This document shows positions 27,916 through 35,206 of a DNA stretch of 35,206 nt, piece by piece. A program made the translations under genes and the position numbers. Position 1 is the stretch's first letter; each line of letters opens with the position of its first letter. This DNA is from Methanomassiliicoccales archaeon (lineage in GTDB: Archaea; Thermoplasmatota; Thermoplasmata; RBG-16-68-12; SOIM01), in contig JAUVHO010000023.1 of assembly GCA_030593295.1 (NCBI GenBank), positions 1 to 35,206 on the forward strand, written 5' to 3'. Below the pieces are notes generated by a model, which was given only the letters and a program-made list of their open reading frames with translations, did no database searches and was not told where the DNA came from.

Positions 27916-28779
27916 CTAAATCTGTCCCATCAAAAGCTTGGAGATGTCCGATGGAAGCGCTGCGACCGGCACCCCGACTTTGTCGAAGGCCTTGATCTTG
28001 CTCTCCGCCGTTCCCCTGCCTCTTGAGATTATCGCGCCCGCATGCCCCATCCTCTTCTCCGCAGGTGCGGTCTGTCCGGCGATGTACGCGAAAACCTTCT
28101 TGCTCATGCTCGGAACGATCTCTGCTGCGTCCTCCTCGGCTGTCCCTCCGATCTCCCCCACCAGGACCACGCTTTCTGTCTCGCTGTCCTTCTCGAAGAA
28201 TTCCATACCCTCGATGAAATTGATGCCTATGACCGGGTCTCCCCCTATGCCCATGCATGTGCTCTGCCCCATGCCGCCCTGCGTGATCCAGTCCACTATC
28301 TCGTAGGTGAGCGTGCCGCTTCTGGAAAGAATTCCGACCTTCCCATTGTTGAAGATGTGACCGGGCATTATTCCTATCTTGCACAGTCCGGGAGAGATTA
28401 TCCCTGGCGTGTTGGGCCCTATGATCTTGGTATCCTTGGATTTCGCGTATGCCATGATCCTCATCGCGTCGTGGAAGGGAATCCTCTCTGTGATCAGCAC
28501 TAATAGTCCGATGCCGGCATCCATTGCCTCATAACAGGCGTCCATCGCGAATCTGGCCGGAACAAGGACCATGGAAGCTGTCGCTCCGGTCTCCGCCAGA
28601 GCCTCTTTCACGCCGTCGAACACCGGAAGACCATGGGCCTCCTCACCGCCCTTGCCGGGTGTTACGCCACCAACGACCTTCGTCCCGTACTCCAGCATTG
28701 CTCCCGCGTGGAACATCCCCTGGTGTCCGGTTATACCCTGGACGATCACCTTCGTGCTCTCGTCGACAAGTATCGCCAT
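27916..28779 (-). CDS. sucD: Succinyl-CoA synthetase (ADP/GDP-forming) alpha subunit
   Basis: This is a 287-residue alpha subunit that binds CoA and carries the phosphohistidine of succinyl-CoA synthetase. Evidence is the N-terminal [23 protein letters not shown] (about 12-34), [44 protein letters not shown], and [13 protein letters not shown] with the phosphorylated His. The ATG at 28779 (MAILVDEST) overlaps the sucC stop as ATGA, with GGTGG just upstream; the longer open frame is the antisense-like extension into sucC. With the beta subunit it links succinyl-CoA to substrate-level ATP formation in the TCA cycle or amino-acid breakdown. Confidence 0.95.
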
Positions 28780-29882
28780 CAGGAACCACCCAGCCTTACC
28801 ACTTCTTCGGCAGCTTCGGAGATGGTGTCCGTGGCGATCATGCCAGCATCCTTGAGGATCTCTTTCGCCTCCTTCTCGTGCAGACCTTTTATCCTCGCGA
28901 CCACGGGGATGTCGATCTTCCACTCTTCGAGGGCCTCCTTGACTCCCAGGGCCACGGTATCGCACTTCGTTATCCCGCCGAATATGTTCAACAATATGAC
29001 GCTGGGTTTGGCCATCTGCATCAGGTAGAACGCTTCCTTCACCCTCTCAGCATCGTCCGTTCCTCCAAGGTCCAGAAAGACCCCGCCCTTGCCCCCTTTT
29101 GCGTTGAGAACGTCCAGAGTCGCCATTGTCAGGCCGGCTCCGTTGGCTATGACTCCAATGTCCCCGTCCAACTGCACGAATGTGATGCCCTTCTTCTTCG
29201 CCTCTTTCTCCAATTCGGAGATGTCCTGCGGCACATTCTGATATTCCGGATGTCTGGCCAAAGCATTGTCATCTATCGTTACCTTCGCGTCAACGGCGAC
29301 GAATCTCCCCTCTTTGGTGACCACCAGCGGGTTGATCTCTATCAGTTCCGCATCTTCCTTCTCGTATGCCTGGTAGCACATGTTCAGAATGCCCGTGAAG
29401 TCCTCAGCTTCCTTTTCGCTGAGGCCTAGGGACCTCGTCAGGTCCTTCAGCACGAACGGTTGAATGCCGACGAGCGGCGATATGTGCGTCTTGATTATCT
29501 TCTCATCAGGAAGGCTCTCGACCTCGACTCCGCCCTCATCGCTGACCATCAGGAGTGTCGTTCCTTCTCTCCTGTCTATCATGAAACTGAGGTAGAGCTC
29601 CTTTTCGGATTCCACCATCTCCTCGACCAACACCTGCTTGACCTCATACCCTTTGATGTCCATCCCGATTATCTGGTCGAAGAACTCCTTTGCCTGTTCT
29701 GAATCCCTTGCGAACTTGACACCGCCTGCCTTCCCCCTTCCGCCGATGGGCACCTGTGCCTTTATGGCGGCAGGAAATGGAAAATCCTTCACCAGCTCAG
29801 GATCGCTTGCAACAACACCTCTCGGCACCGGTATCCCGTATCTGGACAGCACTTCCTTCGCTTTGTGCTCGAGGAGTTTCAT
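28779..29882 (-). CDS. sucC: Succinyl-CoA synthetase (ADP/GDP-forming) beta subunit
   Basis: This is a 367-residue beta subunit with an N-terminal ATP-grasp domain ([20 protein letters not shown], then [21 protein letters not shown]) and the [22 protein letters not shown] block that binds the metal and nucleotide. The C-terminal CoA-ligase domain has [28 protein letters not shown] and [10 protein letters not shown]. It binds succinate and nucleotide and pairs with the alpha subunit encoded immediately downstream. It starts 10 bases after the ilvE stop. The length is slightly shorter than the E. coli protein but complete. Confidence 0.95.
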
Positions 29883-30779: not shown

Positions 30780-31700
30780 CTAAACTTGCGATCCTGATTT
30801 GAAAGGCCGACCCGTTATCCTCTCGTACATCTCCATGTATATGCTTTTCGTCTCTTCCAGGATTTCGGGTGGAAGAGGCGGGATATCCGGCTCCTCAAGG
30901 CCCTTGCTTCTGGCGTCCTCCAGCTGGTCGAAGTAGCTTGTTGAACGGTAATACTGCCTGACCGTCTCCTTGCTGAGCTCCTTGAACTCTCCGTTCTGGT
31001 AAGCTTCGATGTCCCAGAACCTGTCCTCGTCGCATGTGCCGAAGGAATCGATGACCATGAGCTTCCGGTTCTCGTCGAACGCGAACTCCTTCTTGCCGTC
31101 CACGTGCAGGAGCCCCCGCTGTCCCACCTCGTTGCCGATCCTCTCGTCTAGCTCCAGGTTCAACTCCAGAACCTCTTCGTACTCGTCCTCGGTGAGCCCG
31201 GTCATCTTGAGGAGCTCTGCTTTGTCTATCTTCCTGTCCACATCCTCCAGTTTGGTGGTCTGTTCCAGGACGGGCTGCAGGAGTTCGTCCCCGTACTTCG
31301 GCGCGTAACTGGCAGAGAAACCCAGGTCGGTCGGGTCCATCTTGCCGGCCTTCAATCTGTCGTAAAGGGAACCCGCCACATAGTGTCTGGATATCCACTC
31401 AGCAGGTATCAGATAGTTCGTGGTCTCGCTGTTTATCTGACTGTAATCGGGTATCACGTCCACCCTCTTGACCCTCATCCGGTTGGGGGATGGCATGCTG
31501 AGGAAATGCGTCCTGATTCCTATCTCCTGGCTCTTCTCGAACCAGAACGATGCCTCGCCGCAAAGGGTCTCGCCCTTCTTGGGAACATCCGTCGGGACAA
31601 TTTTATCAAAGACAGAGATCCTATCCGTGAAAAGGAACTCTAGTTCGTTCTCGCTCACTTCGAATAGATCCTTCACCTTCCCCCTCTTCAGAAGCTTCAT
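30780..31700 (-). CDS. purC: Phosphoribosylaminoimidazole-succinocarboxamide synthase
   Basis: This is a 306-residue SAICAR synthetase, which ligates aspartate to CAIR with ATP in purine synthesis. Evidence is KLLKRGKVKDLFEV (2-15), the DRISVFDKIVPTDVPKKGE block (about 26-44), IPAEWISRHYVAGSLYDR, the nucleotide and metal site LLHVDGKKEFAFDENRKLMV followed by IDSFGTCDEDRFW, and YYRSTSYFDQLE. It is somewhat longer than short bacterial PurC (about 240) but similar to other archaeal or eukaryote-like forms. It is the first gene of purC-ilvE-sucC-sucD, with a TATA-like box about 33 nt before its ATG. It complements purE, which lies 12 kb away. Confidence 0.95.
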   Translation of the reverse strand: MKLLKRGKVKDLFEVSENELEFLFTDRISVFDKIVPTDVPKKGETLCGEASFWFEKSQEIGIRTHFLSMPSPNRMRVKRVDVIPDYSQINSETTNYLIPAEWISRHYVAGSLYDRLKAGKMDPTDLGFSASYAPKYGDELLQPVLEQTTKLEDVDRKIDKAELLKMTGLTEDEYEEVLELNLELDERIGNEVGQRGLLHVDGKKEFAFDENRKLMVIDSFGTCDEDRFWDIEAYQNGEFKELSKETVRQYYRSTSYFDQLEDARSKGLEEPDIPPLPPEILEETKSIYMEMYERITGRPFKSGSQV

Positions 31701-31813: not shown

Positions 31814-32506
31814 TCAGAAGACCTCTGCTTCAGTATGGACGATTATCCCATCGCTGGTAATAGTGTAGGGTTTCAATCTCCTGGAATGGCCCAGTCTCCT
31901 CATCTTCACTACCTGGATCACGAGCTGAACATCCGACGACCCCTTGGTGTCCTGGATCTGAAGAGAGATGACGCCATCAGAGACATATTCCACCAGCCCG
32001 TCCTTGGACGACCTCGGGTTCTCGTCCTTCGATTCGGCCGTCAGCAGGGATGTCGCTCCGGAATTCCTCATCAATTGGCAGAGATCGAACAGATGCGCCC
32101 TCCTTTCACCTTCGTTGGGGAACATCATCGAGAGCAGGGAGACAGAGTCCAGCACGATTCGTTCGGCACCGAACTTCTTGATGTACGACGGTAACTCGCT
32201 CCGCACCTTCGTCAAAGTGCTCTTCATGTCAGCAGGTTCCAATTTAACCAACGAAAGACTCTCGCCCTTGAACCGTTCCAGGTCCCAGCCGAATGATTTG
32301 GCGTTCTCGAGTATGGATTCATCCGTTTCCTCGAGGGTGATGAATATGCACTTCTCCCCTCTCTCCAGTCCCTCTTTGATGAACTGCAAGCTCAAGGTGG
32401 TCTTGCCGGTGCCGAACCCTCCCAGGATGGTGACGACATGTCCTTTGGGGACTCCGCCGCCAAGCAGTTCGTCCAATCCCTCAACACCCGTCTTGATAAG
32501 CTCCAT
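31814..32506 (-). CDS. KaiC/RAD55-family ATPase, intact Walker A
   Basis: This is a 230-residue single-domain KaiC/RAD55-like RecA-fold ATPase. It starts TGVEGLDELLGGGVPKGHVV, then Walker A GGFGTGKT (29-36), the catalytic glutamates in FITLEETDES (Glu59-Glu60), Walker B RIVLDSVS (Asp120), and a RecA-like C-terminal sheet ending KPYTITSDGIIVHTEAEVF. Single-domain archaeal KaiC-like proteins act in signalling, motility or recombination, and their partners vary. The ATG at 32506 was chosen because it begins the family N-terminus and GGTGA lies 4 nt before it. It starts 8 bases after the stop of the degenerate paralogue gene, so the two are co-expressed, downstream of RPA genes. Confidence 0.9.
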   Translation of the reverse strand: MELIKTGVEGLDELLGGGVPKGHVVTILGGFGTGKTTLSLQFIKEGLERGEKCIFITLEETDESILENAKSFGWDLERFKGESLSLVKLEPADMKSTLTKVRSELPSYIKKFGAERIVLDSVSLLSMMFPNEGERRAHLFDLCQLMRNSGATSLLTAESKDENPRSSKDGLVEYVSDGVISLQIQDTKGSSDVQLVIQVVKMRRLGHSRRLKPYTITSDGIIVHTEAEVF

Positions 32507-32514
32507 CACATCAC

Positions 32515-33411
32515 CTAGATTATCCTCTCCATGTACAATATCGAAAGACCCTGGTGATTGGTCACCATCGTGGGGAACCTGGAAATGCGCTCGCTCTCCA
32601 AGTGCGGAAGCAGTCCGCTGAACTTCTCCACGTACATGTACCTCTGCCTCTTCGAGCTGTTCAGGTAGTTCCTCCACAGGAATGTAAGAACGCCGTCCAC
32701 GCTGTCCATCAGCATCTGTTGGTATCTGTTCTCCATGATCCCCTGAGTGAGCAGGAGGTACACGATCCCGTTCCAATTCTTGGCCGCTCTCTGCAGCCCC
32801 TTCATGGTCGCAATGAGGTCGTCGTTGCTGATCTCGTCCGTTTCCACGAGGTCGGTTATGGAGTCCACAATGACAACTGAATCCATGGCATTGTCGTCCA
32901 GGTAGGTCACAAGCTTCTCGAGCAGATTCCCGCTCTGACCGCTGAACGGGTTGTCGTCCTCACGGTTCGTCCAAGAAGCCGGCACGACGGTCCTCTTGAA
33001 GTATTCCCCTGAGAAGTCCTTGAATGTGGTCAACCTCTCCATCGCCTCCACGAACTGGGGGTTGAACGACATCGCCACCTCGTTCAATATGTCCCGCTTT
33101 GATCTTGTGAAGCTGATGTAGTGGATGTTTTTGGGCAGCAGACCGTCCTCGGCCGCGGAGCCCATGTAGAACTTCTTCAGGCGAGGGTTCTCGGTCACTA
33201 TGGCTATCTTGGATGCGCTCGTGTAGACGTATTCCCTCTGCCCGGCGCCAACATCTCCCAGGAGAAGAACTACCGAACCCGCGGGCAGACCGCCCTTCAC
33301 GATGGTGTCAAAATCCGAGACTCCGGTGGGTATCCTCCTGGTCGGAAAATCGTCCACTTTGTCCTCTAAGTGCGCTTCAACCATCTCTGGCGTTAGAGGC
33401 ATCCCACTCAT
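32515..33411 (-). CDS. KaiC/RAD55-like protein with degenerate Walker A (probable pseudo-ATPase)
   Basis: This is a 298-residue protein with the KaiC-like layout. The N-terminal lead TRRIPTGVSDFDTIVKGGLPAGSVV matches the family start. The P-loop position reads GDVGAGQREYV (52-62), where the lysine and Ser/Thr of GKT are replaced by Gln and Arg. A Walker B-like SVVIVDSITD (Asp183) follows. The C-terminal half has KGLQRAAKNWNGIVYLLLTQG, then WRNYLNSSKRQRYMYVEKF, with conserved basic residues. Loss of the P-loop Lys suggests it cannot hydrolyse ATP normally and may serve as a structural or regulatory partner of the adjacent intact paralogue. The ATG at 33411 was chosen; an ATG three codons in is possible. 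The pairing role is inferred. Confidence 0.82.
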   Translation of the reverse strand: MSGMPLTPEMVEAHLEDKVDDFPTRRIPTGVSDFDTIVKGGLPAGSVVLLLGDVGAGQREYVYTSASKIAIVTENPRLKKFYMGSAAEDGLLPKNIHYISFTRSKRDILNEVAMSFNPQFVEAMERLTTFKDFSGEYFKRTVVPASWTNREDDNPFSGQSGNLLEKLVTYLDDNAMDSVVIVDSITDLVETDEISNDDLIATMKGLQRAAKNWNGIVYLLLTQGIMENRYQQMLMDSVDGVLTFLWRNYLNSSKRQRYMYVEKFSGLLPHLESERISRFPTMVTNHQGLSILYMERII

Positions 33412-33455: not shown

Positions 33456-34313
33456 CTAGATTTTCTTCATCCGTCCCAGGACGGGTTCGTAGACCAGACC
33501 CTTGTCCAGAAGTTCGTTAGCTATCTCCTCCAACTCGTCCTTCTTGATGCCGGCCTTCTTGGCGCCTTTGAGGATGTCCTCCCATGACGCACCCTTGCCG
33601 TTCTTATCGAGCGATCCTATGAGCTCAAGGACGTCGGTCTCCTTGTCCTCTTTCTCCTCGTCCACCGGCTCTTCCTTGACGTCCGCCTGCTCCCTGAACT
33701 CTGGTAAGAGATACCTGAGAGCGTCGATCAGCAAGCCCGAATACTTGTCCACTTCGAGGTCCAGGTAGTGCTGCTTGGCCCTGACTATGCCGTCCGCCAA
33801 TCGTTCCTTGTAGCCCAGCGCAATGAGTCCTTCCTTCGTCAATGGGTCCATCTGCTGAGCCTCCTTCATGGCCGTTATCCTTTCCCTGAGATTCTTGCAC
33901 GCCTCCAGTACCCAGAAGTCCCTGAGGTCCTCGCTGACCTCGGTGACCATCTCCGGACGGATGGAGACGTATATCGTGCCCTCTTCGGGTGAATAGACCC
34001 TGCTCTTGCCCATGACCGCCGCGAAGACGGGCGGTTCAAGCTTCGCAAGTTGCTGGGCTGCTTCGGGTTGATACTGACCTGCTGAGATGTAGAAGGTCCC
34101 GGTGGAGTCCTCCAGTCTCGCCCTCCACATGGGCTCCTCCTCGGTTGCGATGTTCTCTACCTCGGTTATGACCCCGACCACCAATAGACGGTTGATCCTG
34201 GCTCCGAGCGGGGTGACCACGTATGACGGGGCCCTCTCCCCGCCCTCGGTGTAAACGTAGGTTGAATCGTTGTACTCGCCTGCGAACACTCTCCACGCCA
34301 CCTCCCTTATCAT
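33456..34313 (-). CDS. RPA-associated protein (RPA32-like OB-fold, COG3390 type)
   Basis: This is a 285-residue protein resembling the euryarchaeal RPA-associated (Rpap) proteins. The N-terminal IREVAWRVFAGEYNDST and the OB-fold block VVGVITEVENI, then WRARLEDSTGTFYISAGQYQPEA (about 45-86), followed by TIYVSIRPEMVTEV, are typical. An acidic linker (VKEEPVDEEKEDKETDV, about 212-228) leads to a C-terminal winged-helix-like domain (GASWEDILKGAKKAGIKKDELEEI) ending LVYEPVLGRMKKI. In haloarchaea each such protein is encoded with its RPA and is needed with it for DNA-damage resistance. Here its ATG overlaps the RPA stop by four bases, the same coupling. Confidence 0.9.
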   Translation of the reverse strand: MIREVAWRVFAGEYNDSTYVYTEGGERAPSYVVTPLGARINRLLVVGVITEVENIATEEEPMWRARLEDSTGTFYISAGQYQPEAAQQLAKLEPPVFAAVMGKSRVYSPEEGTIYVSIRPEMVTEVSEDLRDFWVLEACKNLRERITAMKEAQQMDPLTKEGLIALGYKERLADGIVRAKQHYLDLEVDKYSGLLIDALRYLLPEFREQADVKEEPVDEEKEDKETDVLELIGSLDKNGKGASWEDILKGAKKAGIKKDELEEIANELLDKGLVYEPVLGRMKKI

Positions 34314-35206
34314 GTGAGGCCCTCCAGATCATCAAGCATCTCCCTCGCCTCCTTTTCCACCTCGATCTTCAGTATTTCTGCGGTATTGACAATCATCATT
34401 ATGCCGAAGTCGTCCCTGGTGACGTTTCCCTGCACCTCGATGGGTTGGGCTATGAGCATGTCCGCCAGGTCGTCCCTCACGACCTCGTGGGTCATTGCCT
34501 CCTTGGCCATGTCTATGCACACGTCCATGGACTTGTTGAGGAACTTCTCCGTGAGCTCCCTGCCGAAGATGGCAGTGATGGCTCCGCTCCCGTCGTCGAT
34601 GACCGCCTTTATCCTGAGGTCGGCCTCGCCTTCCACTTCCCCGTGGATCCTGCACGCGTTCTTTCTGAGGACCCTTCTGCATTCGGGGCATCTGTAGATC
34701 AATCCGCTTCCTTCCTTCACGTCAACGAGAATGCCCCTGACGGTGGTATCCACCGCGCCGCCTCTCTCGATAAGGTCCTCTATCCAGATCCTCGGCGATG
34801 TCTTCAGGTCATCCATGGACGGGAAGTCCTCGTCGACTATGTTGACGTCCGCCCTCTCGTCGAAGTTCAACTGCGGGATGCCTCTCCACGTCCGTATGTA
34901 ACCGCCTTCGATCTTGACCACGTCGCCTTCCTTCAGTTCATAATCCTTCCATGCCGTGAACTGGGCCTTGCCCGTTTCGTCGGCCATCACTCCGGAATAG
35001 ACCATCTTCTTGTCGCCCTCGACCATGACCTCCCTCTCCTCCACGGAGAGGATCCTCACTGTGATCGAAACGCCTCCGAACCCTTCCCTGAGGTCGGCGA
35101 CCTTCGCGGGTGTCACAGTGGCCGGCCCGGGTGTGAACGGAGGAACCGCCTCCGGGCTCTCGGGGCTGATGGTCGTCCTGTTGCCGAAGTTGATCTGCAC
35201 CTGTCC
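34310..35206 (-). CDS. Replication protein A (single-stranded DNA-binding, OB folds and zinc finger), 5'-truncated by window edge
   Basis: The frame is open to the window edge (Gly-Gln precede the GTG at 35200), so the start probably lies outside and at least one further OB fold may be missing. Visible parts, numbered from that GTG, are an OB fold at about 43-122 ending IRTWRGIPQLNFDE, and a second OB fold with an embedded zinc finger (Cys171, Cys174, Cys183, His186 in CPECRRVLRKNACRIH). A C-terminal part continues with DLRIKAVIDDGSGAITAIFG. Archaeal RPA coats ssDNA in replication and repair. It is coupled by an ATGA overlap to the RPA-associated protein gene and probably co-transcribed with the two KaiC-like genes beyond it. 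Confidence 0.92.
   Translation of the reverse strand, partial: GQVQINFGNRTTISPESPEAVPPFTPGPATVTPAKVADLREGFGGVSITVRILSVEEREVMVEGDKKMVYSGVMADETGKAQFTAWKDYELKEGDVVKIEGGYIRTWRGIPQLNFDERADVNIVDEDFPSMDDLKTSPRIWIEDLIERGGAVDTTVRGILVDVKEGSGLIYRCPECRRVLRKNACRIHGEVEGEADLRIKAVIDDGSGAITAIFGRELTEKFLNKSMDVCIDMAKEAMTHEVVRDDLADMLIAQPIEVQGNVTRDDFGIMMIVNTAEILKIEVEKEAREMLDDLEGLT

Follow-up and report, generated by a model that had tools for sequence, protein, structure and literature searches.

We find that a gene for a KaiC-like protein with a lost ATP site (pseudo-ATPase) and a gene for an intact KaiC-like ATPase are inherited as a unit in more than 20 Thermoplasmata families. Inactive homologues of KaiC and RadA are already known; an obligate pair of a dead and an active one appears to be new. 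Since the dead and the working ATPase always stand side by side, and repeatedly next to different replication or repair genes, we suggest that they form a two-part genome-maintenance machine, which apparently has never been studied.

The window, the whole stretch of 35,206 nucleotides that was analysed, is one complete contig of a 2.1-Mb draft genome, whose closest named relatives are Methanomassiliicoccales/Thermoplasmata MAGs. The order of genes on its minus strand is RPA, a COG3390-like gene, the pseudo-ATPase, the intact ATPase and PurC (Table 1). The pseudo-ATPase and its active partner are likely to share one mRNA. The open reading frame of 320 aa listed for the partner is a mere upstream extension into the pseudo-ATPase gene. 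PurC is probably functionally unrelated to the pair. It is followed on the same strand by branched-chain aminotransferase-like and succinyl-CoA synthetase-like genes (28779-29882 and 27916-28965, named by eye), and this gene order is partly kept in relatives of family f1.

Table 1. The pair of KaiC-family genes and its neighbours in the window.
Feature	Position	Strand	Remarks
Replication protein A homologue	34310..35206	-	cut by contig end, 5' part missing; adjoins the pair in the window's order only
COG3390-like RPA-associated protein	33456..34313	-	predicted OB-like strands and C-terminal winged helix; adjoins the pair in the window's order only
Pseudo-ATPase subunit, KaiC-fold	32515..33411	-	298 aa, ATG start; GDVGAGQRE (no Walker A Lys), SFTRS (Arg at catalytic Glu position), Walker B Asp kept
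Spacer of the pair	32507..32514	-	8 bp; 2-131 nt, median 17, in 78 relatives
Catalytic partner, single-domain KaiC-like ATPase	31814..32506	-	230 aa, ATG start; TIGR03880 KaiC_arch_3 above cut-off
PurC (SAICAR synthetase)	30780..31700	-	downstream of the pair; a neighbour of it in more families than RPA is

Inheritance of the pair

Among the 100 nearest genomes, 78 carry both genes, 21 carry neither, one (G012, with the pair at a contig edge) carries the pseudo-ATPase alone, and none carries the active gene alone. In all 78 pairs the genes share contig and strand, and the active gene lies downstream at the spacings given in Table 1, which were measured between model match boundaries. Among 245 genomes drawn separately and evenly from the phylum, the pseudo-ATPase was found in 31 and TIGR03880 (at E<=1e-60) in 25, all of them within the 31 and at adjacent coordinates. 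As for the remaining six, a diverged partner lies beside the pseudo-ATPase in four, the partner was found in G307, and a contig edge is met in G125. The pair is absent from our samples of families f6, f7, f11, f20 and f22. Searches outside the chromosomes returned weak KaiC-like matches only (viral contigs, for the pair) and generic KaiC homologues of less than 60% identity (plasmids, for the active partner).

The first-pass annotation had read the two genes as an active/inactive ATPase heteromer. The obligate active/inactive gene pair is well supported at the genomic level by sequence (dead and live sites in 94/94, adjacency in 78/78), and from it we infer the physical heteromer. It could be instead that the two proteins work separately, the degenerate one moonlighting or acting as a non-ATPase protein that is merely cotranscribed with a KaiC homologue. 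The profiles of the two families indeed share just about 21% identity in an alignment of about 200 columns, with TLEET of the active protein opposite SFTRS of the dead one, and the complex is our proposal. However, the active gene never occurs without the dead one in the 100 relatives, and the two genes stay adjacent without exception even in families with little other synteny in common. We consider separate action improbable. Long frames in L028, L030 and L131, examined as candidates for natural fusions, looked like non-coding extension in GC-rich DNA.

The two ATP sites

The observation from which the heteromer had been proposed proves stronger than it was first put, and its features were all found: a broken Walker A (GDVGAGQREYV) and a Walker B-like Asp (VVIVDS) in the upstream gene and, 8 bases away, an intact KaiC-like ATPase (GGFGTGKTT, VLDS) with both catalytic glutamates (TLEET).

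The pseudo-ATPase matches the Pfam KaiC model (PF06745) with 35.6 bits (cut-off 26.6; E=8e-9). Its AlphaFold model, built from 42 orthologues (pLDDT 89, pTM 0.87), finds as best solved matches in Foldseek KaiC and the archaeal KaiC-like proteins Sso2452 and PH0186, with target-normalised TM of about 0.74-0.80 against single-domain KaiC/Sso2452 chains. KaiC models and structures outscore RadA for this protein, and the modelled fold is that of KaiC/RadA.

Its sequence predicts that no usable ATP site is left. The Walker A Lys is present in none of 94 distinct orthologues, and its position is taken by Q (41/94), M (15), H (11), G (8), N (8), and also by A, T and others. Thus, the Q-R substitution of the window varies in its letters; it is the loss of the Lys that is kept in 94/94, and an intact P-loop was found in no orthologue among the 94. 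The glycines of the P-loop are retained, the two inner ones in 94/94. Two residues after the lost Lys, where KaiC has Thr/Ser, the pseudo-ATPase has Glu (92/94) or Asp (2/94), and at the position of the second catalytic Glu it has Arg (86/94) or Lys (8/94). The acidic and basic residues of the site have in effect swapped places; from the residue identities we infer a salt bridge between them, which would close the empty pocket. The Walker B Asp is kept in 93/94. In the K-x-R motif the trans Lys is kept in 93/94 and the trans Arg is replaced. Hence the protein has lost not only the Walker A Lys, which a catalytic KaiC-family ATPase would need, but also the pair of catalytic glutamates and the Arg that acts in trans.

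The pseudo-ATPase gene is under purifying selection: against sister genomes its dN/dS is 0.14-0.16; the partner has 0.05-0.06 and the COG3390-like gene about 0.08. A sequencing error, a pseudogene or a private mutation is ruled out by the 94 distinct orthologues and the dN/dS of about 0.15, and the dead site looks ancestral in the sequences compared. The pseudo-ATPase has a motif of its own, D-[FL]-S-x-x-[YF]-[FY]...[VI]-P-x-x-W. Its D, S, P and W are invariant in 94/94, which argues that the protein is constrained for something besides ATP hydrolysis.

The active partner matches the Pfam KaiC model with E=1e-60 and TIGR03880 (KaiC_arch_3) with 279.1 bits (cut-off 249.45, residues 7-230). By this curated cut-off it is a member of KaiC_arch_3, a family without assigned function that has a member also in Haloferax volcanii. 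In 94 distinct partners the Walker A Lys and the Walker B Asp are present in 94/94, the two residues of the Glu pair in 92 and 94, and the trans Lys and Arg of K-x-R in 92 each, with two gaps; every element of a KaiC-family ATPase is thus found in 92-94 of 94. Circadian KaiC has two tandem KaiC domains per chain, and both proteins of the pair are single-domain, with 298 and 230 aa. The C-terminus of the active partner (window 31814-31835) ends in most orthologues with an acidic residue followed by Phe (EVF, DVF and similar), which faintly recalls the acidic-Phe tail of bacterial SSB.

Gene neighbours of the pair

It is only within the window's order (families f1-f5) that RPA and the COG3390-like gene stand upstream of the pair. 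A tandem of RPA41 and COG3390 is already known (Berthon et al. 2008, PMC2643942). From this neighbourhood the first-pass annotation had proposed a four-gene unit for handling of single-stranded DNA or damage signalling. The cluster is codirectional with small spacers in f1, f2 and f3, as one dedicated ssDNA unit would have it; but opposite-strand genes interrupt it in f4 and f5 (a small membrane protein and, in some, also a SirB1-like gene, by eye), and outside the window's order it was not found. Nor does the distribution of RPA and COG3390 track the pair. The COG3390-like gene is present in 92/100 relatives, among them most of those that lack the pair, and where genomes of other families consist of a single contig it lies hundreds of kilobases from the pair (536 kb vs 1435 kb in G049, about 0.9 Mb apart; 1675 kb vs 900 kb in G098). 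We thus regard a dedicated unit of the four proteins as very unlikely. The RPA link is local, and RPA as a universal partner is ruled out. The model of the COG3390-like protein is poor (pLDDT 65). One conserved gene, of about 200 aa and matching no Pfam or NCBIfam model, with a motif like EDFWKIWxxFNK...VHF, stands near the pair in f2, f3, f4, f19 and f26 (L137:3746-4357, L138:6563-7213, L147:7167-7796, L064:1463-2083), upstream of RPA in some and on the opposite strand just downstream of the pair in others.

The DNA or damage role survives through other neighbours. In f12, a FEN1 gene follows the active gene at a distance of 10-16 nt in 5/5 loci, and the one FEN1 checked scores above the curated cut-off of TIGR03674. 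In f15, a DNA polymerase IV gene (PF00817, PF11799) lies directly downstream of the pair in 6/6 pair-bearing genomes of the relatives set and in further loci of the phylum draw. It is the sole Y-family model match in each of the six genomes, and G074, the one f15 genome that lacks the pair, has no match. In f13, SMC and then ScpA- and ScpB-like genes follow 117 nt downstream. Many other families have LonB-NadM-PncC upstream of the pair and PurC downstream, with a divergent Hel308-like gene beyond LonB-NadM-PncC (PncC was identified with PF02464, the other three by eye). The DNA-maintenance neighbours thus differ by lineage and none is universal; a Y-family polymerase as the universal partner is ruled out by its absence in the window's own family, f1-f3 and many others. 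A rough, post hoc estimate puts the probability of four DNA neighbours by chance at a few per thousand, assuming about 5% replication/repair genes and about a dozen independent codirectional neighbours, and PurC is equally recurrent.

The same neighbourhoods may be read in another way, in which the pair is a KaiC-type signal-transduction module of an active hub and an inactivated adapter with no special link to DNA, set among housekeeping operons. PurC, LonB, NadM and PncC recur beside the pair as often as the DNA genes do, neither protein has a DNA-binding domain recognisable by Pfam or NCBIfam, and a class of inactivated KaiC domains (iKaiC) has been described for archaeal signalling (PMC5847659). 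On the other hand, no sensor, receiver or HalOD-like gene was recognised among the neighbours examined, and the pair is arranged tightly and codirectionally with different replication/repair genes in four lineages. We consider a signalling module possible, if rather doubtful.

Proposed function and known systems

We suggest as the most likely reading, held with moderate confidence, a heteromeric KaiC-family ATPase that combines a catalytic with a pseudo-ATPase subunit and acts in DNA replication or damage tolerance. Each gene would encode one type of subunit of a single KaiC/RadA-superfamily ATPase, and only the product of the downstream gene would bind and hydrolyse ATP. The pseudo-ATPase would be a fixed structural or regulatory subunit, which organises the active subunit or recruits partners via D-[FL]-S-x-x-Y-F...V-P-x-x-W. 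In KaiC, a trans Lys helps to complete the ATP site of the neighbouring subunit, and the one retained by the pseudo-ATPase could still complete the site of its partner. The complex may serve replication or damage tolerance in the way of RAD51-paralogue heteromers or of the iRadA of PolB2 mutasomes. This DNA role is a plausible one, proposed from gene context because the pair, depending on the lineage, adjoins RPA, FEN1, a Y-family polymerase or SMC-ScpA-ScpB; with the RPA link a local one, DNA maintenance is still the best guess because the pair abuts the last three in other lineages. Archaeal KaiC-like proteins are mostly discussed as signalling hubs, which counts against it.

A more specific form of this proposal is put forward tentatively, as one that is rather less than probable. 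Here the pair would be a KaiC-fold genome-maintenance ATPase, an obligate heteromer whose converted, nucleotide-free subunit positions the active KaiC at replication forks, with partners (RPA, FEN1, Y-family polymerase, SMC) interchangeable between lineages. Glu at the position two after the lost Lys and Arg/Lys at that of the catalytic Glu would close the empty pocket of the pseudo-ATPase. If true, such a fork-positioned heteromer would be the KaiC-lineage counterpart of RAD51-paralogue mediators.

RAD51-paralogue heteromers (Rad55-Rad57, RAD51B/C/D-XRCC2, Psy3-Csm2) mix ATP-competent and ATP-incompetent subunits and assist transactions of ssDNA. The pair would resemble them as a RecA-family heteromer with a competent and an incompetent subunit. 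However, they belong to the RadA/Rad51 lineage and the pair to that of KaiC, and the likeness is put forward as an analogy.

The iRadA of the PolB2 mutasome is a dead Rad51 homologue encoded beside a translesion polymerase (PMC11791011). The likeness lies in a dead ATPase site within the RadA/Rad51 superfamily next to such a polymerase, as the f15 pair adjoins polymerase IV. Unlike the pseudo-ATPase, which is KaiC-like and has a polymerase neighbour in f15 only, iRadA is closely related to RadA, is partnered by PolB2 and PPB2, and shares its operon with no active ATPase twin. No PolB gene was recognised among the neighbours of the pair examined, and, as described above, KaiC outscores RadA for the pseudo-ATPase.

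Inactivated KaiC homologues of archaea (iKaiC) were reported by Makarova, Galperin and Koonin 2017, as cited in PMC5847659. As far as they are described there, they share with the pseudo-ATPase the KaiC/RadA fold, the lost ATPase site, the archaeal hosts and the proposed networks with active KaiC homologues. In contrast to these, we find a stand-alone dead gene that is tied throughout a class to a single active partner, has no signalling domains and stands among DNA-maintenance neighbours. No description of the pair was found in the literature searched; a prior listing in Makarova et al. 2017 is possible.

KaiC homologues are expanded in archaea and few of them have a known job. The pair is a testable entry to the action of KaiC-type ATPases at the replication fork, and raises the question whether archaea evolved mediators like the RAD51 paralogues twice. 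Being a small two-gene system, it also offers a way to test the use that RecA-superfamily machines make of pseudo-ATPase subunits.

Two minor observations concern further proteins at these loci. In f19, the gene right after the active one encodes a small uncharacterised protein of about 115-130 aa (L147:6492-6881, L091:7545-7892). In f29 and f12, the opposite strand carries a third KaiC-like ATPase gene next to the pair or close by, and f19 has a weaker relative (L142:6579-7298, L141:6560-7279, L086:1862-2644).
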